A stretch of DNA of 64,000 nt. It comes from a virus. Every line of letters starts with the position of its first letter. Position 1 is the first letter of the stretch. Position numbers and translations under genes: made by a program. The stretch is from the IMG/VR virus record IMGVR_UViG_3300027736_001324, positions 62,001 to 126,000 of that record; one strand, written 5' to 3'. Below, piece after piece: positions 1 to 58,912 of the stretch. The notes beneath the pieces were generated by a model. It was not told where the DNA came from and ran no database searches. It was given only the letters and a program-made list of their open reading frames with translations.

Positions 1-3000
1 ACAAATGCTAAAGATTTAGATTACGGCTCACAACCATACTATGGCACTGCGCTAGATTTTAATGATAATCGTGTTACTGTAGGAACTCCTAACTTTGCGC
101 CAACAACTAACGCCAATGACACCAATGGACAAGTAATTACTTATGTAAGTTTAAGTAGCGAACCTGATTGGGCAGTATTTAGAAGTACAAGCGCAATTGT
201 TGATGTTAATAGTTTAGGGCCTATTCAGTTGTTTAGTGCAAGCACCAATCAAACACTAGAGAATTTAGATTATTTTGATCCCTTGCAAGGCAAATTATTG
301 GGGGCTATACAACAAAATATAGATGTTATATCTAATGTAGATCCAGCTGGATATAATAGTCCTAGCTATACCCAGGGTAATTTAGTTTGGGGGCCTGAAA
401 AATTAGGCATGATTTGGTTTAATACCAATAACACTAGATTTATGAATTATCATCAAAATGATGTAACATACAACAGTCAGTGGTGGGGTAGAGTATTCCC
501 GGGAAGTGATGTTTCAGTTTATTCTTGGGTTGTAAGCAATGTGCCGCCGGCACAATATCCAGGTCCTGGTGTACCATTTAGTCCAACTGATTATAGTGTA
601 CAAGGCGTAATTAATGCTGAGGGATTAGTAGTACCTGTTTATTACTTCTGGGCAAGAAACACTAATACTGTGTTTACCCGCAGAGATAAGACATTAGCTG
701 ACACTACATTGCAATTATATATTGCTAACCCACAGGGAACTGGCATTAGTTATTTCTCACCGTTATTACCAAATGTGTTTGGATTATATAACTGTTTTGA
801 TTATGTTAATGGAAATGATACAACATTACATATTGGATATGCAACAGCAAACAATGATGATGTAGCGCATAATCAATATAGTTTGATTAGAGCAAATTAT
901 GCTGATGACTTCTTGCCCGGCGTACCGGGCTCAGGCGCAGCATATCAATATCACGGGGCAGTAGGGATTACAGAGCCAACTAGTCTATACAATAGAATGT
1001 TAGATAGTATGTGTGGCGTAGATAATTTTGGAGCAGTGGTTCCTAATCCGCTATTGCCAAAACTAGTACAAACAGGTGTATTGGCTAAGCCAAGACAAGG
1101 TTTCTTCTACGACAGATTTGGTGCATTACAGAATTATTTACAGTATGCGAATGAAATATTAGCACAGTATCCTATAACTGAAACCAGAAATGCTGCATTT
1201 TTATCAAAAACCGGCACATTCTATGACACTAAAAATTATTGGAATTACATAAACTGGTGGGCAACAGGATATAATAATAATACTAAATCATCATTACAGG
1301 TTTCTATCTACGCAGACTTATCTACGTTGGATGTAGCAGCGGGCACAATTGTTACAGTAGCAGCAAATAGCGCCGGCAATAGCGAAACATACATCTATAA
1401 TGTTGATGGTACCTGGACACGAATTGGATTAACAAACGGCACAATAGAGTTCAGTAGCTATCTTTGGGATTATCCAAGTGCTAAATTAGGGTTTGGTGAT
1501 AATTTCTTTGATACAAACTTATATGATGAATATCCTAGTGAAGAAACACGTAACATAGTTCGTGCATTGAATGAAGAAATATATACCAATGAATTATTAA
1601 TTCATAGAAATAAAAGTTTAATATTATTATTTGAATATATTCAAAGTGAAACTGTTGAAAATCAAAATTATTTACCATGGTTAAACAAAACTTCATTGAT
1701 GGATGTTTCACATACTATTAGAGAATTATTACCATTGGAAGTATTTCGTTCTGATAATCAAGACTTCTTGGCAGGATATATTAATGAAGTTAAACCTTAT
1801 CACGTAGTAATTAAAGAATTCTTATTCAAGTATACAAAAACTGATGTATTTGAAGGAGACATAACTGACTTTGACATTCCATCACAATTTAACACAACTG
1901 TACAGCAATTCATATCTCCTGAGTTAGTATATGCTAATCCAAGTGGCGACAACCAATTCTTGCCAACTGATCCAATATGGCAAACTGCTCCTTATAGCCA
2001 ATGGTTTAGTAATTATGGATTGAGCATAGGATATAGAGTAGAAAACACAGTAGCAGGTGAGACTAATTATCCTATTACTAAATTAGCATCGTATGTTTCA
2101 TTAAGTTCTAACTCACTGTATGTTGATAATGTTAATGGTTTTCCAGTAACCGGTTCAATACTAATTGGGACAGAAGAAATTGCATACAGTTCTATAGATT
2201 TATTAACTAATCAATTATTAGGATTGGCTCGTGGATATAATAGTACTACTATAGAACAACATATTCCCGGCGAACAAATATATATTGATTTGCCAGCAGT
2301 AATAGTATTGAATTCAGGTAGAGGATATACTGAACCTCCTAGAGTTACTGCATATATTGACACTACGGTATATCCTGCACCAAGAGTAGTTGCACAACTT
2401 GAACCTATAATGAGTTTAGATTCAGTTATAGGTGTTAAAGTTTTAAATCCGGGCGAAGGCTATGCAGTTCTCCCAACAATTCAAATTGACCCTGCATTTA
2501 CAATTACATTTAATAGTACAAGTGTTAATGTTGATAATAGTACTATTGAAATAGAAGCACCATTATTACAAACAGGAGATTTATTAATATATAATATCCC
2601 AGCCGGATCTACTAAAATAGGTGGATTAGTTGATGGACAAAAATATTATGTTGGAGTTTTAGAAACTACCCCGTCTACTGTTATTGCATTGTATGATACA
2701 TATTTTACTTTATTAAATGATCACGACAGGGTGCCATTGACTAGTCAGGGTTCAGGAACTCAAACATTAAAAGTAGGAGCAGTAGCATCTTGCATAACAA
2801 GTTCTATTCCAACAAGAGAAAATTCAATAACCTTACGCTATGATAGAACCTCATATACCTCTCAAGTAATTGAGTGGGAACCATCTGGTTATTATGGGTC
2901 TTTTTATGCTGGATCATTCAACGATAGTTTAAGATTATCTTCATCTTCAATATCATTAGAAGCATCAAGCCCTCCAATCAGTTCGGTTTTAGCTAGTGCG

Positions 3001-9000: not shown

Positions 9001-10800
9001 AACAGTTATCAATATCAAATTATTGATTTAGGTACTACTACTAATGCTGAATGGAATGACATTGCATTAACGTCCGGTGTTACATATGAAGTAGGTAGCA
9101 CGTTCACCGTGCTTGCAGCTTCAGCAGCAGCGGGAACCGGCACTGTGTTACTTACTAATTTAGGTGGTATCAGCACACTTGGTGAAGTTTATTTTGTTAG
9201 AGCATTATTAGATAGCACACATTTTACTATAGAAGATCAATATGGTAATATAATTGAACTTACTGATACCTCAGGTAATTCATTATATGCATACAGCGGA
9301 GGCTTAGTAGCAGTTAGAGTTATAACTGGAATTGATCACGGTTTAACAGAAAATTCATTAATTCGTATTGACGGTGTAGTTGGATCAACCCAGTTAAACA
9401 ACAATACATATTATGCTAGAATAATAAGTAATACTGAATTTGATTTGTATACCTATCCATACAATCCTGCATATGGAGCTATTAATTACCCGGTCGTTGC
9501 AATATCTGCATATATCTCAGGTGGATATGCATGGTTAGATCAATTGTTTACTATTGCTACTACTGTAACAATTGGAACAAATTCTACTAATAACAGAATT
9601 GCTGTACAAGACGGAACTAAATTAATACATGGAACTCCGGTATACTTTACTCAATTTGGCGCTACTCAAAATGAAGATATATTGGGTAATATTTTAGCAC
9701 AGCATGAATATTATGTGTATGAAATTACACCGGCAACAAGTGTAGATGATTTTGTAATAGGGTACCAGTATCAAATTTTAGAATTGGGTGATACTGACTG
9801 GAACTTTGTTGCAGGTACAGTAGACGTTGATTATGTTGTAGAGGATATAATTACAGTTGAGGATGTTGATTCAGGAACAACAGGCGTTGCAAGTAGTTTA
9901 CAAGAATTTACTATTAGCGAAACTCGCTATCCAAATGAATCAATTTTTGCAGTAACAACAGCTACAGGTGTAGTAAATGTTTCTCAATTCCAACAAATCA
10001 ATGTTGATAGATTGTGGGTAACTGTAAATGGTTTACGAGTTCCGGCGTCGTCATTGAGACTAAATGAATATAATAATTTAAGTATTTTGACAACTATTCA
10101 AACTGGCGATGTAGTTATTATAACTAGTATGATGCCAACAGCTACTCCAAATGAAGAAACTTATTTATTAAATGTAACTACAAGCAATCAGCCATCTGTA
10201 TATAGAGCAAATTCACAGACTAGAACTTGGTTAACTCACCCATTAGAATACACTGATACTTTGATTTATTTAAATGATGTAAGTCGTATAACCGATACTA
10301 TTGTTCAGGATGTAACGTGTCCAGTTGCTGTAGACGGGTTATATAATATTGGATTAACTTCTAATAAGAACGTAATATGTCATTTGACAGTTTATAACAA
10401 TACAACTTCTACCTTAGTGGACCCAGTAAATTATTCAACAATTGTTGTAGATACCGCTCCAATATTGCAAATTTCTGCTCAAGTTTCAGTTGGGGATTCA
10501 TTGACAATCACTTCAGTTGAAGGTAGATTATTATATGTCAATGGGGAGCAAATTGGATTCAGAGAATGTGATTTGACCAACAATACAGTCAGTGATTTGC
10601 AACGCGGAACAAACGGCACAGGTACACAGACTTATATTCCGTTATATTCTGAAGCATACGGATTGGTTCCAAATAATCGTATGACAGACGTACTATATTC
10701 TTCTGCGTGGAATTCTTATGTATACAATACAGTTGAGGGCGATCCGTTGCAGATTAGTGACACATTGGGAGCAGGTTTCTTAAGAACGGATAGAACTTAA
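1..10800 (+). CDS. Giant modular virion protein (partial, 5' end outside window)
   Basis: The frame is open from base 1, so the start lies upstream; at least about 3,599 residues are visible. I do not recognise the whole protein. The first ~2.3 kb encodes a non-repetitive region rich in Asn, Tyr and Trp. From about 3.2 to 9.3 kb it is built of at least eight copies of a ~55-residue beta module (pattern FTGTxFGGxxxxxxYYV, then FTIS, then TTDSGSM) and five copies of a second module beginning AGSFVxGxxYTI or YQYQIxxLG. Between about 5.86 and 6.61 kb, several SxDGxTW-type blades resemble a BNR/Ycf48-like beta-propeller. There are no membrane segments. Position next to fibre-like genes under late promoters supports a tail, baseplate or fibre role. 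That role is inferred from context and repeat architecture, not from a known family. Confidence 0.75.
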   Translation, partial: TNAKDLDYGSQPYYGTALDFNDNRVTVGTPNFAPTTNANDTNGQVITYVSLSSEPDWAVFRSTSAIVDVNSLGPIQLFSASTNQTLENLDYFDPLQGKLLGAIQQNIDVISNVDPAGYNSPSYTQGNLVWGPEKLGMIWFNTNNTRFMNYHQNDVTYNSQWWGRVFPGSDVSVYSWVVSNVPPAQYPGPGVPFSPTDYSVQGVINAEGLVVPVYYFWARNTNTVFTRRDKTLADTTLQLYIANPQGTGISYFSPLLPNVFGLYNCFDYVNGNDTTLHIGYATANNDDVAHNQYSLIRANYADDFLPGVPGSGAAYQYHGAVGITEPTSLYNRMLDSMCGVDNFGAVVPNPLLPKLVQTGVLAKPRQGFFYDRFGALQNYLQYANEILAQYPITETRNAAFLSKTGTFYDTKNYWNYINWWATGYNNNTKSSLQVSIYADLSTLDVAAGTIVTVAANSAGNSETYIYNVDGTWTRIGLTNGTIEFSSYLWDYPSAKLGFGDNFFDTNLYDEYPSEETRNIVRALNEEIYTNELLIHRNKSLILLFEYIQSETVENQNYLPWLNKTSLMDVSHTIRELLPLEVFRSDNQDFLAGYINEVKPYHVVIKEFLFKYTKTDVFEGDITDFDIPSQFNTTVQQFISPELVYANPSGDNQFLPTDPIWQTAPYSQWFSNYGLSIGYRVENTVAGETNYPITKLASYVSLSSNSLYVDNVNGFPVTGSILIGTEEIAYSSIDLLTNQLLGLARGYNSTTIEQHIPGEQIYIDLPAVIVLNSGRGYTEPPRVTAYIDTTVYPAPRVVAQLEPIMSLDSVIGVKVLNPGEGYAVLPTIQIDPAFTITFNSTSVNVDNSTIEIEAPLLQTGDLLIYNIPAGSTKIGGLVDGQKYYVGVLETTPSTVIALYDTYFTLLNDHDRVPLTSQGSGTQTLKVGAVASCITSSIPTRENSITLRYDRTSYTSQVIEWEPSGYYGSFYAGSFNDSLRLSSSSISLEASSPPISSVLASAQGVGFSILDVENNQTLTWSSRTRDTIQTYDNTTLYPNAIRINPSTGGSSVDALLGSTLGFYVGMPVKFVGSIPAGSPIVSSTPIGVTPESTTIYYVKSLLKLPKIIDAGSFVFGKVYTIVSVGNTDFVAIGASANTVGVVFTATGTGSGTGTASDATLLEDTGFTISATVDTDGVPGATFSLTTATVGTAGLTLYVGELTNTAIMTVNYNGIRTVTGTSSTNNIITIPLNAIGENGTTGFYQGLPIFFTGNVFGGVVENDTYYVTTVIDLQNFTMSTINDPLVLTATATNASGYAITCNTTLGLSVNDPIIFTGTTFGGIVEGTIYYVRELFSGNSTFSISASVNGSAVVLTTDSGSCTVTSQVDTVVLTTSTGSMTLNMGLPVSPGQVNGQQFTLYKTSGEYTSVSGTVSNLIERNITATLATVNRVCLTTNSGGITNIYTNMDFDVASNIGGLTTSGGPYTVTGTGTTSITVTATFSNNRLRCTDTDILYEGMPIYFSGTSLGGVSLDEVYYVLDIVNSTDFTISESPAGSEFDTLGDSGSMTGTGEPYLTVADTLSDATGLVTLTQSVGTTPTFNVSYILGGYQAVVATAGTGYAETNIITILGTAIGGTTPTNNLSLQVSAVNSSGGILGTIASGAPAGATEQYYVKVYSETQLELYENSNLTVAVSGLNFPYTGITTTTATVATASNNRFTVGSSAGFNLNDSVVFTGTVFGGVTLGETYYILAKPTSTTVTISTSIGGTVFDITADDTGSMSMAKAGDFALLPEPFFFDASVVKYNNRLYQCIISNNDQDFIFGKWELLQAGNYNLNALDRIVGYYKPNKTNTEAWAQYINMPGDDLTQLVSGITYPNATYLGNPFAPADEFTLDTILTDRPFYATGLDLKAVIWNGTTYISAADTTSYTSLNVSANSVTWAITQLSNSTINVTDMIFNGLYYVMTCNNSATPVLTSTDGINWSTITSYTPYGLTATTIPLSLNSIVYQTSLPYVAVGNTILICADVINLAAWTEVYRLPTTATFNGNPVAVTNVLNGVTYAHTTGYTGFVAVGLGQTPSGSNLVNVALIYTSVDGITWNQVTFNATTYGFNAIASNGQTIAAVGDHGIIYTSTNAITWFAQSSGTVRNLTNIIWDSVNNVFVALGENGVILTSDIFGITWTARTSGTTETLESVVWNNDDSEYVVVGLNNTVLRSTDLTTWTSTSNFVTPEAVYTVQGDAFTAGYGPEEMVPGIVSDTITMITNTRPGSNWDETIYQHVGYGVVSLELTPTSGNQVEYSFVNATIVPTQVSVFVIDYATGLSTTLYEGIDYSVDWINKIVTLDTPINYITPGTDTLRIDVYEVGNGDQLVKANTETDPIRLNSTTGFHEIYVNANYTAGIYQGSGVIRPTTEPLKAIALLTNGTSDAITCDSVENFVLNSPITFSGTVFGNIVEDQVYYVKSISGATNRITISLTVNGDTFALADATGSMTAIIQVGTGIVWTPPAMYHNGSPLTLGTTSIVTRTKSTTNTITTNSTGTMVPNQSIVFSNTMFGDVIVPQQVYYVKTVYDANEFTVSETQGGDTLELSDATGGAIFITNDYAIGLADNGVTASIMLAADYDVTIDYLAYTLMGETLPIQYGYTLPIVETFVGDAVGTASFTLTNYLGGTNPTNAIVEINGVRQNNSAYTINDINNTILFYSPPSDGDVISVTTYNLTDRQYFNTQYNITSSGAGVASITISNTTATAIPFDYSVLAGSFVIGQLYTIQSLNDDAYPTPGANTNFTLIGASSNTVGVTFTATGPGTGTGSAIIAGNGFDATQQTVLQTAGSFVLTNVYSIVTLGTTTNTQWNTIAGTSGVTYSVGSTFTCANIGTGLGNGTAYAYSSGLYSQSLYYLTLASGTTSSLIINSSIVFENVIGGIVAGQTYYITEILNSTDFVISSQVGGLPYEVTTDSGAMTSVVGELTVSNIVGIDNSITTPVAITVSGTIAADDSVICSTTSNLTVGQDIIFKAAIIGVTEGIVNSYQYQIIDLGTTTNAEWNDIALTSGVTYEVGSTFTVLAASAAAGTGTVLLTNLGGISTLGEVYFVRALLDSTHFTIEDQYGNIIELTDTSGNSLYAYSGGLVAVRVITGIDHGLTENSLIRIDGVVGSTQLNNNTYYARIISNTEFDLYTYPYNPAYGAINYPVVAISAYISGGYAWLDQLFTIATTVTIGTNSTNNRIAVQDGTKLIHGTPVYFTQFGATQNEDILGNILAQHEYYVYEITPATSVDDFVIGYQYQILELGDTDWNFVAGTVDVDYVVEDIITVEDVDSGTTGVASSLQEFTISETRYPNESIFAVTTATGVVNVSQFQQINVDRLWVTVNGLRVPASSLRLNEYNNLSILTTIQTGDVVIITSMMPTATPNEETYLLNVTTSNQPSVYRANSQTRTWLTHPLEYTDTLIYLNDVSRITDTIVQDVTCPVAVDGLYNIGLTSNKNVICHLTVYNNTTSTLVDPVNYSTIVVDTAPILQISAQVSVGDSLTITSVEGRLLYVNGEQIGFRECDLTNNTVSDLQRGTNGTGTQTYIPLYSEAYGLVPNNRMTDVLYSSAWNSYVYNTVEGDPLQISDTLGAGFLRTDRT
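3178..9285 (+). repeat. Two interleaved protein-repeat families within the giant virion gene
   Basis: Family A (FTGTxFGG...YYV...FTIS...GSM) can be read at about 3.73, 3.92, 4.48, 5.12, 7.25, 7.56, 8.66 and 8.95 kb. Family B (AGSFVxGxxYTI... or YQIxxLGTTTNxxW...GSTFT) can be read at about 3.33, 8.20, 8.41, 9.00 and, just beyond this span, 9.75 kb. The B copy at about 9.00 kb sits inside an A copy: the A front half is at 8.95 kb and the A back half (GEVYFVRALLDSTHFTIED) at 9.18 kb. The copies are diverged at the DNA level, so this is old modular duplication. Confidence 0.75.
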
Positions 10801-32594: not shown

Positions 32595-35500
32595 ATGCTA
32601 AGAGATGTATTTTATTACGGCGCCAAACCCAACGTTCACCCAAGAGAAAAATTTGCAACTTCACTAGAAGATGCTAGACAACAATCTACCACAGAACATT
32701 TTTGGATAATAAACGAATATTGTGATTATCGTAATTTTGATTGGGACTTTGATTTTGAATTTCTACCCGACGAAGATGTATGGGCAGAAGAACATAACAA
32801 CGTATGGCCTAGTATACATCAAAAAGATAGCGGCACATGGCTATGCACATCAAACCCAACCGAGATAATTATATATCGGGCTGACGTTGAACCAGTAAAA
32901 CGTAAAAACGAAACACACAAAAATTGGGTACTACTAGATTTAGTAGATGAAACTAAATTTGATTTTAGTTGGCATCCAGACCCAACTGACCCTCCCTATA
33001 TCTATACATGGGGATGTAAATATTTCCCAGTAGAATTGCAAGCCTGCTTAGAATATCATGTTCCGGGTGCAACAACCGTGAAGTACATGGATAGTATTGT
33101 AGAGTTGTTGCCACATACAGATCGATGGGTTGAAGTACAGAATATTGACAAATCATTATTTGATATGTCATGGAGACCTAGTCCATTGGATCCTCCTATG
33201 AATTATGTTTGGGGTAACAAACACATTGATGGCAAATTGAAATCTACACTAGAGTATCATATGCCCGGTGCGACTGATACAAAGTATATGTCTTATCCTT
33301 TGCCAGTATTACCTGAGTGGGATAGATGGCAAATCCATGACGAGATAGATAAAACTAGTTTTGATTTTAGTTGGAGACCAGATCCAAGAGAGCCGGCTTA
33401 TATATACCAATGGGGTAATAAACATTATAGTAGTGAATTATCTCCTACTATTTCCTATACTGCCCCGGGAGCAACTGAAGTTAAACATATGTCACAAGAT
33501 GTTAATCTAGCAGTAAGTAAAAATTGGGTTTTCTATCACGCAGTAAATAAAACTAAATTTGATTTGACATGGAGACCTGATCCAACTAGCCCACCTTATA
33601 TCTATGCATGGGGAAATAAATATGATCCAGCAGAAGTTAAACCTACGCTAGAATATATTGTACCCGGGGCAACCGAATACAAGTATATGGACGTTGTTGA
33701 TTTAGAGCCAGAATGGGATAGATGGAAAGAACATATTTTTGTTGATCATTCTAAATTTGATTTTAGTTGGAGACCAGATCCTAATCTACATGAGCCACCT
33801 TATATCTATGTGTGGGGCAACAAGTATGATCCGGCAGAAGTTAAGCCTACGCTAGAATATCATGTGCCCGGAGCAACTGAATATAAGTATATGAACATTG
33901 TTGATTTAGAGCCAGAATGGGATAGATGGCAAGAAATTCAACCAGTAGATAAAAGTAAGTTTGATTTTAGTTGGAGACCTGATCCTAACTTACACGAACC
34001 ACCTTATATCTATGTGTGGGGTAATAAACATATATCAGCAGAACTTAAATCAACAATAGAATATCATGTGCCGGGCGCTACAGAACGCAAGTACATGAGT
34101 CAGTTAGTAGAAGTGTTGCCTGAATTCAATCGGTGGAAAGAAATACAATCTATTGATAGAAACAAGTTTGATTTAACATGGAGACCAGATCCAAGAGAAC
34201 CAGCATATATTTATGTATGGGGAAATAAACATATACCGGGTGAACTGAAATCAACAATAGAATATCAATGTGACGGGGCTACTGAATATAAGTATATGGA
34301 TGAACTTGTTGAAGTATTACCTGAACAAGAACACTGGAAAGTTACGCAAGAAGTAAAAAACTTTGACTTTACCTGGAGACCTGATCCACGTGAACCTGCA
34401 TACATTTACACTTGGGGTAATAAACATATAGCAGCAGAACTTAAACCCACAATAGAGTATTATTGTGAGGGTGCAACAGAACACAAGTATATGGGTGAAG
34501 TTGATGTTGTTCCTGAAATGGATCGTTGGAATATTGTACAAGAAATTTCTAACACATTTGATTTGTCATGGAGACCTGACCCACGTGAACCTGCATATAT
34601 CTATACATGGGGTAACAAATATATACCCGGAGATATAAAACCTACACTTGAATATCATTGTGAGGGTGCTACCGAACGAAAGTATATGGGTGATGTTGAT
34701 GTATTGCCTGAGTTAGACAAGTGGAAAGAAATTCAATCAATAGATAAAACTAAGTTTGATATGTCGTGGAGACCAGACCCGCGTGAACCGGCATACATTT
34801 ACGTGTGGGGTAATAAACACGTTGAAGCTGAATTAAAGTCAACTATTGAATATCATTGTCCTGATGCAACCGAACGCAAGTACATGGGTGATGTTGAAGT
34901 ATTACCTGAATTAGATAAATGGAATATTGTACAACAAGTAGAAAACTTTGATTTTACATGGAGACCAGATCCAAGAGAACCTGCATATATCTACACATGG
35001 GGTAACAAGCATGTTAGTGCTGAATTGAAACCGACACTTGAATATCATTGTCCTGATGCAACTGAACGAAAATACATGGGTGATGTTGAAGTGTTACCGG
35101 AGTTTGACAAATGGAAAGAAATACAGCCAATAGATAACACTAAGTTTGATATGTCGTGGAGACCTGATCCACGTGAACCTGCATATATTTACACATGGGG
35201 TAATAAACATGTTAGTGCTGAGTTTAAGCCAACACTTGAATATTATTGTGAAGGTGCAACAGAGCGCAAGTACATGGGTGATGTTGAAGTTTTACCTGAG
35301 TTTGACAAATGGAATATTGTACAACAAGTAGAAAACTTTGATTTTACATGGAGACCAGATCCAAGAGAACCTGCATATATTTATGTATGGGGTAACAAAT
35401 GGATACAAGGAGATTTAAAATCTACACTTGAGTATCACTGTGAAGGGGCAACTGAATTCAAGTATATGAAAGAATTATTAGATGTTGCACCAATACACGA

Positions 35501-38500
35501 CCACTGGAACATTATACAAAAAGTAGAAAACTTTGATTTTAGTTGGAGACCTGATCCACGTGAACCTGCATATATTTATATATGGGGTAATAAACATATA
35601 GCAGGTGAATTAAAACCAACACTTGAATTTCATTGCCAAGGTGCTATTGAACGTAAATTTATGGGTACTGCTGAAGTAGCACCAGAATGGGATAGATATC
35701 AAATATTAATACCAGTAGATAAAACTAGCTTTGACTTCACGTGGAGACCAGATCCCAGAGAACCTGAATTTATATATGTATGGGGTAATCAATCTAACAT
35801 TGCAGAAAAAGAACCTACTATTGAATATCATTGTCCTGGCGCTACTGAACGAAAATACATGAATGACAATGTGGCTAAGACATTACCTGTAGTTGAAAAT
35901 TGGAAGATATTAATTTCAGTAGAAAACTTTGATTTTAGTTGGAGACCTGATCCTAATAGCCCTCCCTACATCTATATATTTGGTAATCAATGGCATGATG
36001 CTATGACAGAGCCTACATTAGAATATCATGTAGAGGGCGCTGCCGAAAAGAAATATGTCACAGAGATTGTTCCTACTGCAACAAAGACTCAGGAGTATTG
36101 GAAAACTCTTATTCCAATCGAATCATTTGATTATAGCTGGAGACCCAATCCACATTCAACCCCTTACATATATGTATTTGGTAATCAATGGCATGATAGC
36201 ATAACTGAACCCACAATAGAATATCATTGTCCTGGCGCAACGGATAAGAAATACATTACTGATGTAATTGCATTAGCCAAATCAACAGCAACAGACAATC
36301 ATTGGAAACGATTAATACCGATTGAATCATTTGATTATAGCTGGAGACCTGATCCTAATAGTCCTCCTTATATCTATGTGTTTGGTAATAAATGGAACGA
36401 TGCTGCAACTGAACCATCGGTTGAATATTATGTTGACGGCGCAACTGAACACAAATATGTATCTGACCCTGTTGCTATTCCTAAAGCAGAGATACAATAC
36501 TGGGCTATCAATAATAATGATGACTTAGAAACATTTGATTTTACATGGAGACCCAATCCACATAGTCCATCACAAATATATCAATGGCAAGATAATGGAC
36601 CAAGGTATACGGTTCCTGGCGCAACAGATGTGGTGTTAATGGAACACACTGGAAAGACAAAGAAAGTAATCGTTAATCGTTACAAGATTAAAACAACATT
36701 GGAAGATTTAATTAACGAACATCCGGAAGAAGTATTCTGGGCTATCAACCCTGATTTGAATTATGATAAGTTTGACTTTAGTTGGCGACCCAACGAAGAA
36801 AACTTTAGACATATAAATGTATTTGGCAATGAGTATAGCAAAAATACACAAACGTATTATATTAATAGTCCAATGTATATGCTTGGAAACAAAGAATATA
36901 ATTATGTAGAGGATCAATCAGTGCAGGTTGATAGTAATCTAAGTATGTTCTTTATTGATAAAAGTAATAAGGAAAGTACAAGTAGATTTAATGAATTAAA
37001 ATTACGCTATCCACAATTACAAAAGACAAGATATCTTAATAGTTGGGTAGATACAATCAATCGTTGTATTACTAAATCAGAAACTAAATTGTTCTGGGTA
37101 CTGAATAGTGAATTAGATTATAGTGAGTTTGATTTTGACTTCTATCCTAGCCCATGGCAAATGAATATGATACATGTGTTTGGAACACAATGGAGTCATT
37201 GGGGTAACACCTACATGGTTAATAAAGAAACCTTTGCAGAAGATACAAAGTATGTAAAGATTATTGAACATCTATCTAACTTGAATTTTGTAAAACAAAG
37301 AAAAGCAAAAGCAACAAATGTATTGTATGACATTGTTTATATTGACCATGGTAATAAAGATTTGTCTGATATTAATAACTTAATCATCAAGTATGAAAAG
37401 AGTTATTTGACTACTTTTAGAAACATGTTAGATAAACTTTCAGTAAAGAAAGAACATTATGTTTGGGTAGCTAGTACTATATGTGATTACACAAACTTTG
37501 ACTTTACCTATATATGTGATCCGTTTGCCAAAGAGCAATTACATGTATTTCCAAGTGATAAGCAGAAGTTTGGTGATACGTTTTTAATTGATGTGAATAG
37601 ATTACGTGAATTAGTAGATGATATGACTACATTGGAAGACTACAATAAGATTAACTTTAATCAAAGTCAAAGAGTAAAAAGATTAGAAGCACCTGTGATT
37701 ATTACTGAGGAAGATACTCATGTATCTAGTATTAACACGGAGTTTGATTTTCCGTATGCTGTATTCACCACAGTTGATAATAAAGACATTAAAGTATTGG
37801 ATAATGAACCAATGAACATATGGAGTTATGAGACTAAAAATATCATAATAACCAGTGAAGGTGGAACAAGAATTATTGTTCCCAAAGAAGCAAGAAAATA
37901 TATTAAAAACGAATTATATGATTATCCATATATAATGCCCAATGACAAATTAGCAAAGTCTAATCCGTTGGACATTGTTTTCTTTAGTAACGGTGAAGCC
38001 TGTGCTGAGGCAAATTATAAACATTTGCTTAAACTAACTGAAAAGCTACCCAACAATGTATTAAGAATTGACGGTATAAATGGTCGTGTAAAAAGCCAAC
38101 ATGCTGCTGCTGAAAGTAGTGCTACCCCATGGTACTTCTTAGTCAATGCTAAACTGAAAGTAGATTCAAAGTTTAATTTTAATTGGCAACCGGACAGATT
38201 GCAGATACCTAAGCATTATATTTTCCATGCCACCAACCCTGTAAACGGATTAGTATATGGTCACCAAGCTATCGTTGCTAACAACAAGAAACTTACCTTA
38301 GCAAACTTTGGAACTGGATTAGACTTTACTATGGACAGTGAGCATGAAGTTGTTGCTATTAATAGCGGCATTGGTATGTATAATAGTAGTGAGTGGGATA
38401 CATGGCGTACTGCATTCCGCGAATGTATTAAACTTAAATTATCCAAAACTATGGAAAATAAAGAACGTCTAGATGTATGGTTAAACGTTGGCCTTGGTGA

Positions 38501-38639
38501 GTTTGCCCAATATAGTATACAAGGTGCCAAAGATGCAGTAGAATACTATTATGAAGTTGAAAGTGACTTTAAAAAATTGCGTTTAAGTTATGATTGGGAT
38601 TGGTTAAGAACATTCTATGAGACTAAATACAAACTATGA
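32595..38639 (+). CDS. 2,014-aa tandem-repeat protein with glycosyltransferase-like C-terminal domain
   Basis: The ATG at 32595 starts MLRDVFYYGAKPNVHPREKF. Residues 36-83 are a degenerate first unit (FWIINEYCDYRNFDWDF). Residues 122-1313 contain 18 tandem units of 63-70 residues with consensus FDFSWRPDPREPAYIYxWGN, then KHxxxELKPTxEYHCxGATE and RKYMGDVEVLPExDKWxxxQ. Residues 1314 to about 1560 hold four longer degenerate units (FDFxxxPxP...HVFG). The last ~200 residues (SQHAAAESSATPWYF, NPVNGLVYGHQA, WDTWRTAFRECIKL) match the C-terminal part of the 16029 product. There is no signal peptide or membrane segment. It lies in the glycan operon; function unknown. It may be a multivalent binding scaffold fused to a transferase-like domain. 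Confidence 0.8.
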   Translation: MLRDVFYYGAKPNVHPREKFATSLEDARQQSTTEHFWIINEYCDYRNFDWDFDFEFLPDEDVWAEEHNNVWPSIHQKDSGTWLCTSNPTEIIIYRADVEPVKRKNETHKNWVLLDLVDETKFDFSWHPDPTDPPYIYTWGCKYFPVELQACLEYHVPGATTVKYMDSIVELLPHTDRWVEVQNIDKSLFDMSWRPSPLDPPMNYVWGNKHIDGKLKSTLEYHMPGATDTKYMSYPLPVLPEWDRWQIHDEIDKTSFDFSWRPDPREPAYIYQWGNKHYSSELSPTISYTAPGATEVKHMSQDVNLAVSKNWVFYHAVNKTKFDLTWRPDPTSPPYIYAWGNKYDPAEVKPTLEYIVPGATEYKYMDVVDLEPEWDRWKEHIFVDHSKFDFSWRPDPNLHEPPYIYVWGNKYDPAEVKPTLEYHVPGATEYKYMNIVDLEPEWDRWQEIQPVDKSKFDFSWRPDPNLHEPPYIYVWGNKHISAELKSTIEYHVPGATERKYMSQLVEVLPEFNRWKEIQSIDRNKFDLTWRPDPREPAYIYVWGNKHIPGELKSTIEYQCDGATEYKYMDELVEVLPEQEHWKVTQEVKNFDFTWRPDPREPAYIYTWGNKHIAAELKPTIEYYCEGATEHKYMGEVDVVPEMDRWNIVQEISNTFDLSWRPDPREPAYIYTWGNKYIPGDIKPTLEYHCEGATERKYMGDVDVLPELDKWKEIQSIDKTKFDMSWRPDPREPAYIYVWGNKHVEAELKSTIEYHCPDATERKYMGDVEVLPELDKWNIVQQVENFDFTWRPDPREPAYIYTWGNKHVSAELKPTLEYHCPDATERKYMGDVEVLPEFDKWKEIQPIDNTKFDMSWRPDPREPAYIYTWGNKHVSAEFKPTLEYYCEGATERKYMGDVEVLPEFDKWNIVQQVENFDFTWRPDPREPAYIYVWGNKWIQGDLKSTLEYHCEGATEFKYMKELLDVAPIHDHWNIIQKVENFDFSWRPDPREPAYIYIWGNKHIAGELKPTLEFHCQGAIERKFMGTAEVAPEWDRYQILIPVDKTSFDFTWRPDPREPEFIYVWGNQSNIAEKEPTIEYHCPGATERKYMNDNVAKTLPVVENWKILISVENFDFSWRPDPNSPPYIYIFGNQWHDAMTEPTLEYHVEGAAEKKYVTEIVPTATKTQEYWKTLIPIESFDYSWRPNPHSTPYIYVFGNQWHDSITEPTIEYHCPGATDKKYITDVIALAKSTATDNHWKRLIPIESFDYSWRPDPNSPPYIYVFGNKWNDAATEPSVEYYVDGATEHKYVSDPVAIPKAEIQYWAINNNDDLETFDFTWRPNPHSPSQIYQWQDNGPRYTVPGATDVVLMEHTGKTKKVIVNRYKIKTTLEDLINEHPEEVFWAINPDLNYDKFDFSWRPNEENFRHINVFGNEYSKNTQTYYINSPMYMLGNKEYNYVEDQSVQVDSNLSMFFIDKSNKESTSRFNELKLRYPQLQKTRYLNSWVDTINRCITKSETKLFWVLNSELDYSEFDFDFYPSPWQMNMIHVFGTQWSHWGNTYMVNKETFAEDTKYVKIIEHLSNLNFVKQRKAKATNVLYDIVYIDHGNKDLSDINNLIIKYEKSYLTTFRNMLDKLSVKKEHYVWVASTICDYTNFDFTYICDPFAKEQLHVFPSDKQKFGDTFLIDVNRLRELVDDMTTLEDYNKINFNQSQRVKRLEAPVIITEEDTHVSSINTEFDFPYAVFTTVDNKDIKVLDNEPMNIWSYETKNIIITSEGGTRIIVPKEARKYIKNELYDYPYIMPNDKLAKSNPLDIVFFSNGEACAEANYKHLLKLTEKLPNNVLRIDGINGRVKSQHAAAESSATPWYFLVNAKLKVDSKFNFNWQPDRLQIPKHYIFHATNPVNGLVYGHQAIVANNKKLTLANFGTGLDFTMDSEHEVVAINSGIGMYNSSEWDTWRTAFRECIKLKLSKTMENKERLDVWLNVGLGEFAQYSIQGAKDAVEYYYEVESDFKKLRLSYDWDWLRTFYETKYKL
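32958..36533 (+). repeat. 18 tandem ~199-bp coding repeats (FDFSWRPDP units)
   Basis: Each unit begins with an FD(F/M/L/Y)(S/T)W(R/H)Px core and spans about 66 codons. Central units (roughly 33.96-35.5 kb) are the most similar; outer units diverge. A higher-order two-unit period is visible: 34917-34990 and 35307-35380 are identical over 74 bp, 390 bp apart, matching alternation of KEIQxID-type and NIVQQVEN-type linkers. Confidence 0.9.
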
Positions 38640-38827
38640 TAGTTAAACTCGCAAACAAAATTGGGCAAGCACATGCCAAGTTCTTTATGTGGTTGGGTCA
38701 CAAAGCCGAAACTAACCCATGGTGGGCAGTCGCATTAACTGTTTGGGCATTATATGAAATTGGCGAGCATATTGCTGGTCCAGTTATGGCAATCATGTAT
38801 GCTACCGGACATCTTGTTGTCCAATAA
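38636..38827 (+). CDS. Small membrane-associated protein, 63 aa
   Basis: The ATG overlaps the repeat protein's stop (ATGA), so it is coupled to the end of the long operon. The product MIVKLANKIGQAHAKFFMWL is followed by a hydrophobic stretch (PWWAVALTVWALYEIGEHI and GPVMAIMYATGHLVV), giving one or two membrane helices. The N-terminus is basic. No catalytic motif is present. It might be an anchor for operon products or an unrelated small inner-membrane protein. Function unknown. Confidence 0.6.
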   Translation: MIVKLANKIGQAHAKFFMWLGHKAETNPWWAVALTVWALYEIGEHIAGPVMAIMYATGHLVVQ

Positions 38828-38833
38828 TGTCAA

Positions 38834-38841
38834 CTAAATAC
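38834..38841 (+). promoter_or_regulatory. Late-type promoter motif CTAAATAC
   Basis: Lies 36 nt before the ATG at 38878; AGGAG (38866-38870) sits 7 nt before that ATG. It would start the small host-interaction set. Confidence 0.5.
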
Positions 38842-38877
38842 ATATCTAGCACGTTATATATGTATAGGAGATAAAAT

Positions 38878-39204
38878 ATGAAAAAATTACTTTTGGTTGC
38901 TTTAACATTAATGGTCAGTAATATGGCTTTTGCTCAAGATTGCCGTTGGGGATTAGATCATCGTCATCACAATTGTGGACCTCGTTGGGAACCTCGCACA
39001 GTTATTGTTGAACGTAATGATTGGATAGCCCCATTAATCATCGGCGGAATTGCAGGAGCAGTTATTGCTAATCAAAATCAACAGCAACCAGTTGTTCAAC
39101 AACCGCAGACGGTAATAGTTCAGACTCAAAATGTGTGTACAGCATGGAAAGAGATTCAACAACCAGATGGTCAAATTTACCGTGAGCGTACCTGTACAAA
39201 ATAA
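38878..39204 (+). CDS. Exported glycine-zipper-like small protein
   Basis: 108 residues with a clear Sec signal peptide (MKKLLLVALTLMVSNMAFAQ, cleavage after AFA near residue 19). The mature part begins DCRWGLDHRHHNCG and has a Gly/Ala hydrophobic hairpin (APLIIGGIAGAVIANQ), a Gln-rich linker and a C-terminal CTAWKEIQ...RERTC segment. Four Cys could form disulfides in the periplasm. The layout resembles bacterial glycine-zipper envelope proteins, suggesting origin from a Gram-negative host. AGGAG at 38866 decides the start. Confidence 0.7.
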   Translation: MKKLLLVALTLMVSNMAFAQDCRWGLDHRHHNCGPRWEPRTVIVERNDWIAPLIIGGIAGAVIANQNQQQPVVQQPQTVIVQTQNVCTAWKEIQQPDGQIYRERTCTK

Positions 39205-39360: not shown

Positions 39361-39507
39361 ATGTTTATTGGGTTAATGGGTGTTGATAATGATGGCAAAA
39401 CCATGTATACTCCAAATGGTAATAAGATATGGTTCACATTGCCATGGGGACTAGCGTGGAAATTACAAGAGATACAACATTGGATCGCTAAGAAAACTTG
39501 GCGATAA
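39361..39507 (+). CDS. 48-residue hypothetical protein
   Basis: The start ATG follows AGGAG at 39351-39355. The product MFIGLMGVDNDGKTMYTPNG then continues KIWFTLPWGLAWKLQEIQHW and IAKKTWR. It is aromatic-rich with one amphipathic or membrane-surface helix. The stop codon TAA lies within the late-type promoter motif at 39503-39511 that precedes the tmRNA. Function unknown. Confidence 0.55.
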   Translation: MFIGLMGVDNDGKTMYTPNGNKIWFTLPWGLAWKLQEIQHWIAKKTWR

Positions 39508-39511
39508 ATAG
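39503..39511 (+). promoter_or_regulatory. Late-type promoter motif GATAAATAG upstream of the tmRNA
   Basis: Late-like core about 40 nt upstream of the tmRNA T-arm. A transcript starting 6-10 nt downstream would include the whole acceptor piece. It overlaps the stop codon of the preceding ORF. Confidence 0.45.
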
Positions 39512-39520
39512 TAGTTATTG

Positions 39521-39580
39521 CTGTATGAAGCAAAGAGAAAAGTGTTCTGGACGCGGGTTCGACTCCCGCCAGGTCCACCA
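39521..39580 (+). ncRNA. ssrA: Circularly permuted tmRNA, acceptor (3') piece
   Basis: It contains a perfect T-arm (stem GCGGG 39553-39557 with CCCGC 39565-39569, loop TTCGACT), the 3' acceptor strand CAGGTCC (39570-39576), discriminator A and an encoded CCA at 39578-39580. The partner acceptor strand GGGCCTG lies downstream at 39651-39657 and pairs over 7 bp with a G3-U70-type wobble at position 3, the alanyl-tRNA synthetase identity element. Thus the 3' piece precedes the 5' piece, as in permuted two-piece tmRNAs of some proteobacteria and cyanobacteria. The 5' boundary is approximate. Confidence 0.88.
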
Positions 39581-39650
39581 TAAACATAATGTCTACTGGT
39601 GAATGAGATAACAATGCTCATAATAAAAGTCCAAACAGTATGTTTATGAT
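39581..39650 (+). other. Intervening segment of the permuted pre-tmRNA
   Basis: This 70-nt spacer joins the mature 3' CCA to the 5' end of the coding piece. Its ends pair with each other: together with the last two bases of CCA, CATAAACATA (39579-39588) and TATGTTTATG (39639-39648) form a 10-bp helix stacked below the acceptor stem. It would be removed by RNase processing (RNase P at the 39650/39651 junction by analogy) to leave two RNA pieces. Confidence 0.75.
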
Positions 39651-39830
39651 GGGCCTGACATTGGTTTCGACAGGGCAACAAGTAAATGAGTGGACAGCAC
39701 AAGAGCAACCTTGTAAAAAGAAGAAAAACCGTAAACGCAAACGACGAATTGTTCGCATTAGCAGCCTAAACGCTGCTTAGGGTTTCGGTAGGTTTCCTCG
39801 TAACAGAATAACCTACCATTAAGTTAATAC
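39651..39830 (+). ncRNA. ssrA: Circularly permuted tmRNA, coding (5') piece with tag ANDELFALAA
   Basis: It starts with GGGCCTGACATTGGTTTCGA, the conserved tmRNA 5' end (acceptor strand plus D-analogue). A small stem ACAAG/CTTGT (39699-39703 with 39710-39714) fits pseudoknot 1. The resume codon GCA is at 39737, and the reading frame to TAA at 39767-39769 encodes A-N-D-E-L-F-A-L-A-A, a proteolysis tag like the bacterial ANDExxALAA tags. Downstream, GGTAGGTT (39787-39794) pairs with AACCTACC (39810-39817). The piece ends close to the ATG at 39833; its exact 3' end is uncertain. It would rescue ribosomes and tag products for ClpXP-type degradation. Confidence 0.9.
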
Positions 39831-40504: not shown

Positions 40505-40577
40505 ATATAATTTTCCTTTATCAACTAGCATACATTACGCAAACAGTATACTTACTTTGCGAGAATACATAATTTAT

Positions 40578-40606
40578 TTGACTGTATTTCTACTACTAAA
40601 TATTAG
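40578..40606 (+). promoter_or_regulatory. Sigma-70-like promoter for porin with overlapping late motif
   Basis: TTGACT (40578-40583), a 17-nt spacer and TATTAG (40601-40606) form a sigma-70-like promoter. A late-type CTAAATAT (40596-40603) overlaps its -10. This 146-nt gap between the oxygenase and the porin holds no gene. The porin ribosome-binding site AAAGGAAA lies near 40637-40644. Confidence 0.5.
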
Positions 40607-40650
40607 TCTAGCCTGAGTAATATCAGGTTTTTATTTAAAGGAAATTTAAT

Positions 40651-41535
40651 ATGAAGAAAATCGCACTTGCGACAATTTTAGCCGCTGCATCTCTTGCAGC
40701 ATCAGCACAAGTAGCCGTTTACGGTAAAATGCGTGTGTATGAAGAATCAGTAACAGTTGGATCTGCGGCAGCAGTAACAGCACTAACCAACGATACAAGT
40801 CGTTTAGGTTTTAAAGGTACTGAAGCATTAGGTGGCGGACTATCTGCTAACTTCACAATTGAAACTGGTATCGGTGCAGATGCTCCAGCAGCATCAACAT
40901 TGGGCGACAGAACTATGATTGTAGGTTTGTCAAACAGTTTAGGTTCAGTTAATGTTGGTCGTGACAAGCACACAATCGCACGTACACTTGATAACTATGA
41001 CGCAATGGGTAATGTATACGGTTCTAGTACCGCAGTCATTCACGCTGCTCAAGGTTCACGTTTCAGTAATGCGTTGTTTGTTTCAGCTACTCCAATGGCT
41101 GGTTTAACTGTTAACTACATCAATAGCAATAGCGAAGTAGCAGGCGTTAATAACCCACAAGCTGCTAGTATTGAATTTACTCGTGGTCCAATCAGTGCTA
41201 CTGTAGCAAATTTTGATAACGGTACAACAAGTACTTCAACAATCTATGGTGCAAAAGTTAAAGTTGAAAAGACTGGTACTACAGTTTTCGCTACATACTC
41301 TGATGACAAAGTTTCAGGTGTAACTACAAGTGGTAAAAGTATTGGTGTTAATCACCCAGTTACTGGTTCATTGATGGCACTTGCTAGCTATGGTGAGAAC
41401 AATACTACTAAAGCATTAGACTTAGGCGCAAGCTATAGTTTAAGCAAGCGTACAACAGTTCACGCTCGTTACATCAAAGAAGATGCAGCAGCAACAACTA
41501 CTAAGTACGCATTGGGTATGGAACACAATTTCTAA
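40651..41535 (+). CDS. Outer-membrane porin (betaproteobacterial Gram-negative porin type)
   Basis: 294 residues. A signal peptide MKKIALATILAAASLAASAQ is followed by VAVYGKMRVYEESV, the typical first strand of betaproteobacterial trimeric porins (VTLYGxxxxG style), then SRLGFKGTEALGGGLSANF and FVGL/VGLSNSLGSVNVGRD. The C-terminus ends ALGMEHNF with a terminal Phe, the BAM recognition signal. It is shorter than the usual 330-390 residues, so some loops are trimmed. Phage-borne porins are rare: it could alter nutrient uptake, mask receptors or exclude competing phages (inference). It is preceded by promoter-like sites and followed by a hairpin at 41559. Confidence 0.9.
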   Translation: MKKIALATILAAASLAASAQVAVYGKMRVYEESVTVGSAAAVTALTNDTSRLGFKGTEALGGGLSANFTIETGIGADAPAASTLGDRTMIVGLSNSLGSVNVGRDKHTIARTLDNYDAMGNVYGSSTAVIHAAQGSRFSNALFVSATPMAGLTVNYINSNSEVAGVNNPQAASIEFTRGPISATVANFDNGTTSTSTIYGAKVKVEKTGTTVFATYSDDKVSGVTTSGKSIGVNHPVTGSLMALASYGENNTTKALDLGASYSLSKRTTVHARYIKEDAAATTTKYALGMEHNF

Positions 41536-41558
41536 TCCAATCTAATCACATTGATTAT

Positions 41559-41577
41559 AAAGGGGCTTTGCCCCTTT
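41559..41577 (+). terminator. Hairpin after porin
   Basis: AAAGGGGC (41559-41566), loop TTT, GCCCCTTT (41570-41577). It is a strong 8-bp stem but followed by AGCC rather than a long T-run, so it is a probable terminator or mRNA 3' stabiliser. Confidence 0.55.
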
Positions 41578-41583
41578 AGCCAT

Positions 41584-41618
41584 ATGTAACATTACTGTCA
41601 CAATTCAATAACTAAATA
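41584..41618 (+). promoter_or_regulatory. Pho-box-like direct repeats and promoter upstream of pstS
   Basis: Seven-base repeats ATGTAAC (41584-41590) and CTGTCAC (41595-41601) are spaced by 4 A/T bases, and a weaker CAATAAC (41606-41612) follows after another 4. This is the CTGTCAT-N4-CTGTCAT architecture of PhoB operators. It sits at the expected distance before a -10-like or late-like TAAATA (41613-41618). It suggests host PhoB control of pstS under phosphate starvation. Confidence 0.6.
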
Positions 41619-41640
41619 TTTGTGTAACAAAGGAGATTAC

Positions 41641-42636
41641 ATGAAAAAACTATTTGCTATTCTATTAGCGGCTGTAACATTTGCAGCATCAGCACAAGAC
41701 ATTACAGGAGCCGGGGCAACATTCCCGGCTCCGTTGTATTCAAAGTGGGCAAGTGAATATAACAAAGCAACTGGCACTAAAATCAACTATCAATCAGTTG
41801 GTTCAGGAGCTGGCATTAAACAAATTGAAGCAAAGACAGTTACATTCGGTGCAAGTGATATGCCACTTACAGATGACAAACTAGCAGCGTCAGGGTTGTT
41901 TCAGTTTCCGACAGCAATCGGCGGAGTTGTCCCAGTTATCAATGTCAATAACATTGCTCCAGGACAATTGAAATTAACAGGCACAGTTATCGCTGATGTC
42001 TTTTTAGGTAAGATCACTAAATGGGATGACAATGCTATTAAGGCATTGAACCCAACATTAGTTTTGCCTAATCAAGATATTACTGTAGTTCGTAGAGCAG
42101 ATGGTAGTGGTACTACATTTATTTGGACAAACTATCTAAGCAAAGTAAGCAAAGAGTTTAAAGAAGTTATCGGTGAAGGTACTGCTGTAAATTGGAAAGT
42201 TGGAGCAGGCGGTAAGGGCAATGAAGGCGTAGCACAAATGGTTCGTCAACTACCGGGCTCATTGGGATATGTAGAGTTTGCTTATGTTAAACAAACTAAA
42301 ATGAATTGGGTTAACGTACAAAATAGTGCTGGAACTTGGGTGGCCCCAACAGAAGATGCTTTTAAAGCAGCGGCTGCTAATGCTGATTGGAACAAAAGTT
42401 ACTATCAGATACTAACTAATCAAGCAGGCAAAGAAGCATGGCCTATCAGTGGTGCTACATTTATTCTTGTTTACATCAAACCAGAAGATGTTGCTAAGTC
42501 TAAAGCAGCAATGACATTCTTTGATTGGGCATTCAGTAACGGAGATAAAGCAGCAGATGATTTAGATTATGTTGCACTACCAACATCAGTTAAGAACAAG
42601 ATTCGTGCTGATTGGAAACATTTAGGATTATTTTAA
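41641..42636 (+). CDS. pstS: Periplasmic phosphate-binding protein PstS
   Basis: 331 residues from ATG at 41641, chosen because AGGAG lies at 41631-41635 and because it gives a signal peptide MKKLFAILLAAVTFAASAQ; an upstream TTG would add seven residues. Mature motifs: ITGAGATFPAPLYSKW, SVGSGAGIKQI, FGASDMPL, IGGVVPVINV, RRADGSGTTFIWTNYLS and GKGNEGVAQMV, all characteristic of PstS with its phosphate-contacting Ser/Arg/Asp residues. It would feed the host PstABC transporter to raise phosphate uptake during infection, as proposed for cyanophage pstS. The Pho-box-like site upstream supports phosphate-responsive control. Confidence 0.95.
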   Translation: MKKLFAILLAAVTFAASAQDITGAGATFPAPLYSKWASEYNKATGTKINYQSVGSGAGIKQIEAKTVTFGASDMPLTDDKLAASGLFQFPTAIGGVVPVINVNNIAPGQLKLTGTVIADVFLGKITKWDDNAIKALNPTLVLPNQDITVVRRADGSGTTFIWTNYLSKVSKEFKEVIGEGTAVNWKVGAGGKGNEGVAQMVRQLPGSLGYVEFAYVKQTKMNWVNVQNSAGTWVAPTEDAFKAAAANADWNKSYYQILTNQAGKEAWPISGATFILVYIKPEDVAKSKAAMTFFDWAFSNGDKAADDLDYVALPTSVKNKIRADWKHLGLF

Positions 42637-57355: not shown

Positions 57356-58912
57356 ATGGCAACCAATAATGCAGGACCTTCGTTAGTAAAGAATCCCTAT
57401 ACAAAGACGAAATTTAAGAATGATAAGGAATTACAGGACTTTATAAAGTGCTGTGACCCAGACACAGGTTATCTATACTTCATGGATAACTTCTTTATGA
57501 TACAACACCCTACCATGGGCAGCTTAGTATATCATCCATACGGATATCAAAAACGATTAATAGAAACTTATCATAACTATCGCTATAGTATTAGCTTGAT
57601 GCCACGACAGTCAGGTAAATCAACAAGCGCAGCCGGATACTTACTCTGGTATGCCATGTTCAAACCAGACAGTACGATTCTTATCGCAGCACATAAGTAC
57701 ACGGGCGCACAAGAGATCATGCAGCGTGTTCGTTACGCATATGAAAACTGTCCAGACTATATCAAAGCAGGTGTAACAACATATAACAAAGGCTCATTGG
57801 ACTTTGAGAATGGTAGTCGTATTGTAAGTGCAACTACAACTGAAAACACAGGTCGTGGTATGAGTATTACACTACTATACCTTGACGAGTTTGCGTTCGT
57901 TAGACCAAGTATCGCTAAAGAATTCTGGACAGCTATTACTCCAACATTAAGTACTGGTGGTAAAGCTATTATCACAAGTACACCAAACAGTGACGAAGAT
58001 CAGTTTGCCTTCATCTGGAAAGGTGCTAACAAAACTGAAGATGAATTTGGTAACACAACTGAATTAGGTATCAATGGCTTTAGAGCATATAGAGCAGAGT
58101 GGCATGAACAACCAGGTAGAGATCAGAAGTGGGCTGATGAAATGAAAGCACAGCTTGGTGAGGATCGTTTCAACCGAGAGATTGGTTGCGAATTCATTAT
58201 CGCTGATGAAACACTTATTAATCCTAATACATTATTAATGTTAGAAGGAATAGAACCAGTTAGTCGTATGGGACAAGTTCGTTGGTATCAGAAGCCAAAA
58301 AAGGGCAGTATCTATACAGTATCATTAGATCCAAGTCTTGGTACAGGTAGTGATCCAGCGGCAATACAAATCTTTGAAGCAAATACTGTTACACAGATTG
58401 GTGAGTGGAAACACAACAAAACTGATATCCCAACACAGATTAAACTTATTGCACAAATAAACAAATACATAGTTGAATGTACAGGTGAACCAAACAATTT
58501 ATATTATTCTGTAGAGAATAACAGTATCGGTGAGGCCTCATTAGTGTCATTAAACGAATATGGAGAGAACAATATCCCCGGAACATTCATTAGCGAACCG
58601 GGCAAGAAGCGTAAGGGCTTTAATACTACAAACAAGAGTAAATTAACCGCTTGCGCCAAGTTTAAGACATTACTAGAAAGCAAGAAACTAACCATTAATA
58701 GTCGTAGTCTTATCAGCGAGTTGAAAGCGTTTGTAGCACATGCGGGTAGTTATGCTGCCAAGATCGGTGATACAGATGATTTAATTATGGCCAGCTTATT
58801 AAATGTCAGAATGATTCAAGAATTAGGGTCATATCACTTTGAATTAGATAGTTATGTCAAGGACCACGAGGAATTTATTGCACCCTTGCCCTTCTTTGCC
58901 GTGCTAAGTTGA
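57356..58912 (+). CDS. Large terminase subunit (gp17-like)
   Basis: 518 residues. ATPase domain: MPRQSGKST (Walker A, 83-90), LLYLDEFAF (Walker B, D178? region 173-181), motif III TSTPNSDEDQF. The nuclease domain starts near SLDPSLGTGSDPAAI (first metal Asp at about 325), followed by ENNSIGEASL and GDTDDLIMASLLNVR with further acidic ligands. It drives ATP-dependent DNA packaging into proheads and cuts the concatemer, as in headful T4-type phages. It is slightly shorter than T4 gp17 (610). Late promoter at 57343. Confidence 0.96.
   Translation: MATNNAGPSLVKNPYTKTKFKNDKELQDFIKCCDPDTGYLYFMDNFFMIQHPTMGSLVYHPYGYQKRLIETYHNYRYSISLMPRQSGKSTSAAGYLLWYAMFKPDSTILIAAHKYTGAQEIMQRVRYAYENCPDYIKAGVTTYNKGSLDFENGSRIVSATTTENTGRGMSITLLYLDEFAFVRPSIAKEFWTAITPTLSTGGKAIITSTPNSDEDQFAFIWKGANKTEDEFGNTTELGINGFRAYRAEWHEQPGRDQKWADEMKAQLGEDRFNREIGCEFIIADETLINPNTLLMLEGIEPVSRMGQVRWYQKPKKGSIYTVSLDPSLGTGSDPAAIQIFEANTVTQIGEWKHNKTDIPTQIKLIAQINKYIVECTGEPNNLYYSVENNSIGEASLVSLNEYGENNIPGTFISEPGKKRKGFNTTNKSKLTACAKFKTLLESKKLTINSRSLISELKAFVAHAGSYAAKIGDTDDLIMASLLNVRMIQELGSYHFELDSYVKDHEEFIAPLPFFAVLS

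Follow-up and report, generated by a model that had tools for sequence, protein, structure and literature searches.

Phage-encoded tmRNAs of the circularly permuted (two-piece) kind are already known, with 53 described in phage genomes, of which 50 were of marine or aquatic origin (Buchholz et al. 2022, PMC9004378); 79 unique sequences from phages are listed in a tmRNA database (PMC11915505), and huge phages with both a tmRNA and SmpB have been reported (PMC7162821). Among the closest described systems are those of the Methylophilales phage Melnitz and of pelagiphages, in which a complete permuted tmRNA is likewise carried by a T4-like aquatic phage, with the same proposed roles (PMC9004378). 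The Melnitz tmRNA is of the alphaproteobacterial type and follows a glutamine riboswitch and an early promoter (PMC9004378), whereas the gene described here is, by its best-scoring subtype model, of the betaproteobacterial type, is adjoined by no known riboswitch and is preceded by a late-type promoter candidate. Bacillus phage G and mycobacteriophages also carry a tmRNA on a large phage, but in one piece and in the standard gene order, and Bacillus phage G matches the one-piece model RF00023.

The window (the whole stretch of 64,000 nucleotides analysed here) spans bases 62001-126000 of a virus record of 263,709 bp, a 264-kb contig. Positions 39519-39769 of the window constitute a complete circularly permuted tmRNA gene encoding the tag ANDELFALAA. 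Searches with cmscan returned RF04321 at 129.3 bits (E 5e-25; cut-off 47 bits) over the full length of 39519-39769, covering model positions 1-213 of 213, and RF01850 (beta_tmRNA) at 112.2 bits (E 2e-33; cut-off 84 bits) over 39468-39826, the latter being the top permuted subtype model, with overlapping models of the same clan scoring lower. ARAGORN, which is independent of cmscan, also reported a permuted tmRNA with this tag. A chance match to tmRNA models is excluded, the assignment to a two-piece-type tmRNA of the betaproteobacterial subtype is supported at the sequence level, and the gene looks intact and working.

The original prediction had described a complete two-piece tmRNA on a phage and had named a covariance-model search as its check; RF04321, RF01850 and ARAGORN confirmed it, both covariance models scoring above their cut-offs. 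Its location for the gene stood, but not its 5' start: the mature 5' half opens with the P2 strand TGCTG at about 39519, and not at 39521. The layout it had proposed was borne out: the acceptor half, with T-arm (39553-39569) and CCA (39578-39580), precedes a coding half that starts GGGCCTG from 39651, a 7-bp acceptor helix with a G-U third pair is seen in GGGCCUG/CAGGUCC, the tag ANDELFALAA was recovered by ARAGORN with its open reading frame at 39737-39769, and the SmpB-side D-loop that it had singled out for structural alignment (GGUUUCGA) is kept. The features of the locus are as follows.

39503..39510, forward strand: GATAAATA, candidate late promoter of the T4 type, separated from the mature 5' end by 8 nt
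39519..39580, forward strand: acceptor half, comprising P2 5' strands, T-arm, acceptor 3' strand and encoded CCA (RF04321 alignment, covariation)
39519..39523, forward strand: P2 5' strand TGCTG, pairing with CAGCA at 39695-39699 (pairing in 100% of the 30 sequences)
39553..39569, forward strand: T-arm GCGGG-TTCGACT-CCCGC (100% paired, 4 of 5 pairs compensatory)
39570..39580, forward strand: acceptor 3' strand CAGGUCC (39570-39576), discriminator A and CCA (39578-39580), pairing with 39651-39657
39581..39650, forward strand: intervening segment of 70 nt, expected to be cut out (covarying end stem)
39651..39657, forward strand: acceptor 5' strand GGGCCUG, with which the coding half begins; G3.U70 present (sequence)
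39663..39670, forward strand: D-loop GGUUUCGA, SmpB-side element of the tRNA-like domain (RF04321 and RF01850 alignments)
39695..39699, forward strand: P2 3' strand CAGCA (pairing, covariation)
39700..39713, forward strand: hairpin CAAG-AGCAAC-CUUG upstream of the tag (covarying pairs at the same position in relatives)
39737..39769, forward strand: tag open reading frame, with resume codon GCA, ANDELFALAA with its hydrophobic LAA end, and stop UAA (ARAGORN; the RF04321 alignment ends at the stop)
39761..39776, forward strand: stop-codon hairpin GCAGC-CUAAAC-GCUGC (66.7% of cells paired and compensatory changes at 2 of 5 pairs, a moderate degree of support)
39787..39817, forward strand: 3' hairpin GGUAGGUU...AACCUACC with conserved loop CCUCGUAACAGAA (8 of 8 pairs compensatory, 75% of cells paired)

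The locus resembles the betaproteobacterial two-piece tmRNA (RF01850; general model RF04321) in its permuted order, P2 and acceptor pairing, D- and T-arms and tag context, as well as in its stop-codon and 3' hairpins, and its D-loop without an anticodon stem (SmpB side) aligned to the model (GGUUUCGAC). Unlike the bacterial form of RF01850, it is carried by a phage, encodes the CCA and has no 3' terminator hairpin, and its intervening segment measures 70 nt as against about 28 nt in the RF01850 consensus. The 3' intrinsic terminator hairpin of RF01850, deleted in the alignment of the window and present in the sister contig L080, lies outside the mature RNA and is not essential for membership. 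With regard to the pseudoknot that the betaproteobacterial subtype has downstream of the tag, the 3' hairpin with its conserved loop covaries, and a possible AGG/CCU loop pairing, too short to test, was noted by eye. Inspection of the loop lengths led to the rejection of an H-type pseudoknot located at the stop codon. No match was found on plasmids, and exact patterns, run without a positive control, gave 0 matches in 84,980 bacterial genomes, both for the ANDELFALAA tag with AAC and TAA and for the permuted arrangement CCA-50..80-GGG..TGA.

Pattern scans of IMG/VR recovered 40 contigs with the same layout, and 30 phage sequences, that of Stenotrophomonas phage Marzo included, were aligned (alignment A1). 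The search pattern fixes TCCACCA, GGG..TG and TGGTTTCGAC, so that invariance there, including that of G3.U70, is imposed by the search; it left acceptor pairs 4 and 5, the T-stem and P2 unconstrained. These two acceptor pairs covaried in 30 of 30 sequences, with 16 and 9 both-side changes, and the P2 helix was paired in 98-100% of cells with compensatory changes at two of its five pairs; this pairing (39519-39523 with 39695-39699) would hold the two pieces together. The stem of the intervening segment (39580-39588 with 39639-39647) had compensatory changes at eight of nine pairs and 93.7% of cells paired. Across the predicted fold, 24 of 41 pairs had changed on both sides, whilst the named structure showed compensatory changes at 34 of 49 pairs, 90.6% of cells paired (38-48% in slid controls) and a covariation score of 0.402 (0.145 when shuffled). 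As the 34 compensatory pairs include those in the stem of the segment expected to be cut out, the gene is under selection as a folded and probably processed precursor, and the covariation of that stem fits a single precursor that is folded before cutting.

In relatives, the reading frame of the tag is kept and its end is mostly ALAA. In one rival reading, that of a decoy, the phage RNA would compete for SmpB and inhibit host trans-translation like the DS6A-kind tRNA-like domain. DS6A-type RNA does inhibit tmRNA (PMC11915505; PMC4131195), but a decoy needs neither a tag frame, nor a resume region, nor a 3' hairpin, all of which are under selection here, and we regard it as very improbable.

We consider it highly likely that the window gene instead gives rise to a two-piece tmRNA that works with the SmpB, AlaRS and proteases of the host and so rescues ribosomes that stall in infected cells. 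One precursor RNA would be made with the acceptor half first, and, by analogy with bacterial two-piece tmRNA, host RNases (of the RNase P, tRNase Z and RNase E class) would remove the 70-nt intervening hairpin, leaving two RNAs joined via the 7-bp acceptor stem and the P2 helix. The CCA end would be charged by host AlaRS by virtue of G3.U70, host SmpB would bring the charged RNA to ribosomes halted on mRNAs that are broken or lack a stop codon, and ANDELFALAA, with its ClpXP-type LAA degron, would be added to the growing chain for host proteases. The likely gain for the phage would be ribosomes kept free and independence from the host tmRNA supply during infection. The roles put forward originally, namely that translation of phage mRNAs is kept running or that tagging is redirected, are plausible, and resemble those proposed by Buchholz et al. 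2022 (PMC9004378).

Tag redirection as the selective reason, with the phage tmRNA tagging host proteins for breakdown and thereby recycling amino acids or remodelling the cell, was suggested for Melnitz by the same authors (Buchholz et al. 2022, PMC9004378) and agrees with the ALAA tag end being a ClpXP-type degron. The host's own tmRNA would, however, already add a similar tag, and the loss of LAA from some phage tags (LMVA, LAAA, AAAA, ARYA) would weaken degradation; we find this explanation improbable. With regard to ribosome rescue itself, the lost LAA ends, together with the altered D- and T-loops of some related phage tmRNAs, suggest that function may differ within the group. Changed ends (LMAA, ALVA, LAAA, LMVA, ARYA and AAAA) were observed in L007, L014, L015, L027, L078 and L079, and may change recognition by ClpXP. 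The permuted tmRNA of L006 (139-565) has a tag of 28 residues (ANADTFDFTALSFTGNSVTSKSKVALAA) where 10 are usual, and its usual 3' hairpin is not recognisable. The permuted tmRNAs of L097 (8755-9299) and L099 (8411-8793) have a T-loop without TTCGA (GCGGG-GGCAGTG-CCCGC) and the D-loop GGATCGATTGG, such that the elbow contact is changed on both sides; the intervening segment of L097 is 220 nt.

Late expression of the gene may be proposed from the candidate promoter GATAAATA, which overlaps the stop codon of a small upstream open reading frame, so that part of the signal could be of coding origin. Of 29 distinct relatives, 8 have the hexamer TAAATA at -10/-11 relative to the conserved 5' end, compared with 0.27 expected in shuffles (0 of 2000 shuffles had as high a count), and this position before the tmRNA 5' end is like that of T4 late promoters. 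No gp55-like late sigma factor was found among about 20-30 phage proteins outside the window, for which reason we infer rather than assert a late promoter. Other relatives have sigma-70-like TTGACA-17-TATAAT sites before the tmRNA; in L002, L023, L027, L030 and L032 a near-consensus TTGACA-17-TATAAT lies directly before it, with TAAATA inside the spacer.

The phage is related to T4, encoding a T4-type terminase (57356-58912) and a T4-type DNA polymerase, and the nearest annotated relatives of its terminase, at approximately 48-50% identity, are those of Sinorhizobium phage Phosso and the PA5oct group. Flanking the tmRNA are a gene for a 108-aa protein and a 2OG-Fe(II) oxygenase gene, beyond which are genes for a Gram-negative porin, a PstS-like protein, a metallophosphoesterase and a glycosyltransferase. 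The best solved structures for the porin are PorB and porin 32, and its relatives on plasmids all (26 of 26 records) come from betaproteobacterial genera. A betaproteobacteria-like porin alongside a beta-type tmRNA suggests a betaproteobacterial host. The porin gene (Porin_4, 40651-41535) adjoins that of the PstS-like binding protein (41620-42636); porin relatives were present in the sister viral contigs L080 (95%), L083 (51%), L099 (38%) and L150 (35%), and in none of 50,697 annotated phage records. Very long open reading frames were also observed in the window at 229-10800 (3523 codons) and 32595-38639 (2014 codons), the latter being kept in the sister phages L080 (74%) and L083 (51%). No tRNA, SmpB or integrase genes and no terminal repeats were detected on the phage contig, and SmpB was found in none of the 13 records searched. 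The contig may be incomplete, and a tRNA cluster could be missing from the record.

Eighteen large contigs, chosen via their metallophosphoesterase or terminase and some of which may be near-duplicates, were searched whole. RF04321 matched in 16 of the 18, in 15 cases over the cut-off; two contigs (G012 and G018) had already shown a tmRNA near the marker gene, and 14 of 16 matched when these were set aside. Five of the 18, the sister phage included, showed no tRNA, and the rest showed 12-53, whilst six other tmRNA contigs and phage Marzo had 21-30 tRNA matches each. In the relative G001 the tmRNA lies some 105 kb from the tRNA array. That the tmRNA is part of a tRNA array was rejected for the window phage, on whose contig no tRNA was detected, and its retention on long tRNA-less contigs indicates that it is not simply a component of such arrays. 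Ribosome rescue thus appears to be widespread in a large group of environmental phages rather than confined to isolated cases.

Permuted tmRNAs, mostly unannotated, were also present in isolated phages of Stenotrophomonas (Marzo, QDWS359), Xanthomonas (Rb1, X1) and Alcaligenes (QDWS595). In annotated phages a DNA match to the window gene was confined to the acceptor/T-arm stretch, despite which the covariance model identified permuted tmRNAs in the five isolates followed up. That of Marzo (MZ326868, Menderavirus) scores 94.6 bits with RF01850 and aligns with the window gene, but is situated among tRNA genes (24 tRNA matches in the record) and encodes a tag ending ...ANDDSYTVRIAA. Its Stenotrophomonas host is a gammaproteobacterium with a one-piece tmRNA, the form that Xanthomonadales hosts have, and their phages hence do not simply carry the host form of the gene. 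Given these isolates, the matches in 16 of 18 large relatives and the 53 published cases (Buchholz et al. 2022, PMC9004378), the description of such a gene as unusual on a phage was overstated: the window gene adds a case to a known kind. Less expected are its near-constant presence in a group of large freshwater phages, its persistence on tRNA-less contigs, and an allele swap with exchange of halves.

The same survey bears on whether the gene could be a functionless passenger acquired by imprecise excision at an ssrA integration site. The ssrA gene is a common integration site. Fragments of ssrA do occur in prophages (PMC9004378), but the window gene is complete and its strong covariation and compensatory changes already contradict this origin, no integrase was detected on a T4-type phage with a T4-type terminase, and the gene is present in those 16 of 18 large relatives; we consider a passenger barely credible.

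In the sister contig L080, the metallophosphoesterase is 99.6% and the terminase 96% identical to those of the window phage, and the flanks are 90.9% (38600-39190) and 95.0% (40511-41618) identical, whilst the segment between them has been replaced. The same slot in L080 holds a different permuted tmRNA, with the tag ANDELYSLAA, 51% identity in a whole-gene alignment and its own terminator hairpin. The acceptor halves of L083 and the window are 100% identical over 62 nt, whereas the tag and 3' part of L083 are 97.6% identical to L240 and 66% to the window. The acceptor half of L083 pairs with a central segment (GCAAAGAGTAACAGAGTGGACAGCA) that is likewise of the window type; the pairing partner has thus travelled with the acceptor half, as is expected if two RNAs must pair to work. 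These comparisons show that alleles recombine at one slot, and swapped and mosaic alleles represent natural experiments on how the two pieces meet and how a tmRNA of its own benefits a phage.

A different selective reason, with the same chemistry as rescue, would be that the phage tmRNA replaces or protects host tmRNA that toxins or defence nucleases destroy during infection, a sequence-different copy escaping them. Phage tRNAs are known to counter tRNA-cutting defences, and the exchange of alleles at one slot between flanks 91-95% identical, the altered D/T-loops of some relatives and the diversity of tags all fit selection for difference. Allele swapping also follows, however, from ordinary recombination at a conserved slot, and we hold replacement of host tmRNA to be rather unlikely. 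As a tentative proposal on the group as a whole, the permuted tmRNA may be a core gene of large freshwater T4-related phages, probably of Betaproteobacteria, that is kept even on long tRNA-less contigs and evolves as an exchangeable cassette (whole-allele swap, half recombination, and a pairing segment that follows the acceptor half); this would point beyond rescue supply alone to selection for sequence difference, for instance through evasion of host factors that target tmRNA or through adjustment to the SmpB and proteases of the host.

Elsewhere in the same phage genome, the Rfam freshwater-2 cis-regulatory RNA motif was found at L050:5272-5348 (record 151272-151348; 65.2 bits, cut-off 49.9). 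At L053:14425-19380 (record about 220.4-225.4 kb) are genes for a GTP cyclohydrolase and QueD-like and QueE-like proteins, with a partial QueC-like match nearby (L053:4306-4911); together these probably represent a 7-deazaguanine pathway for modified DNA.
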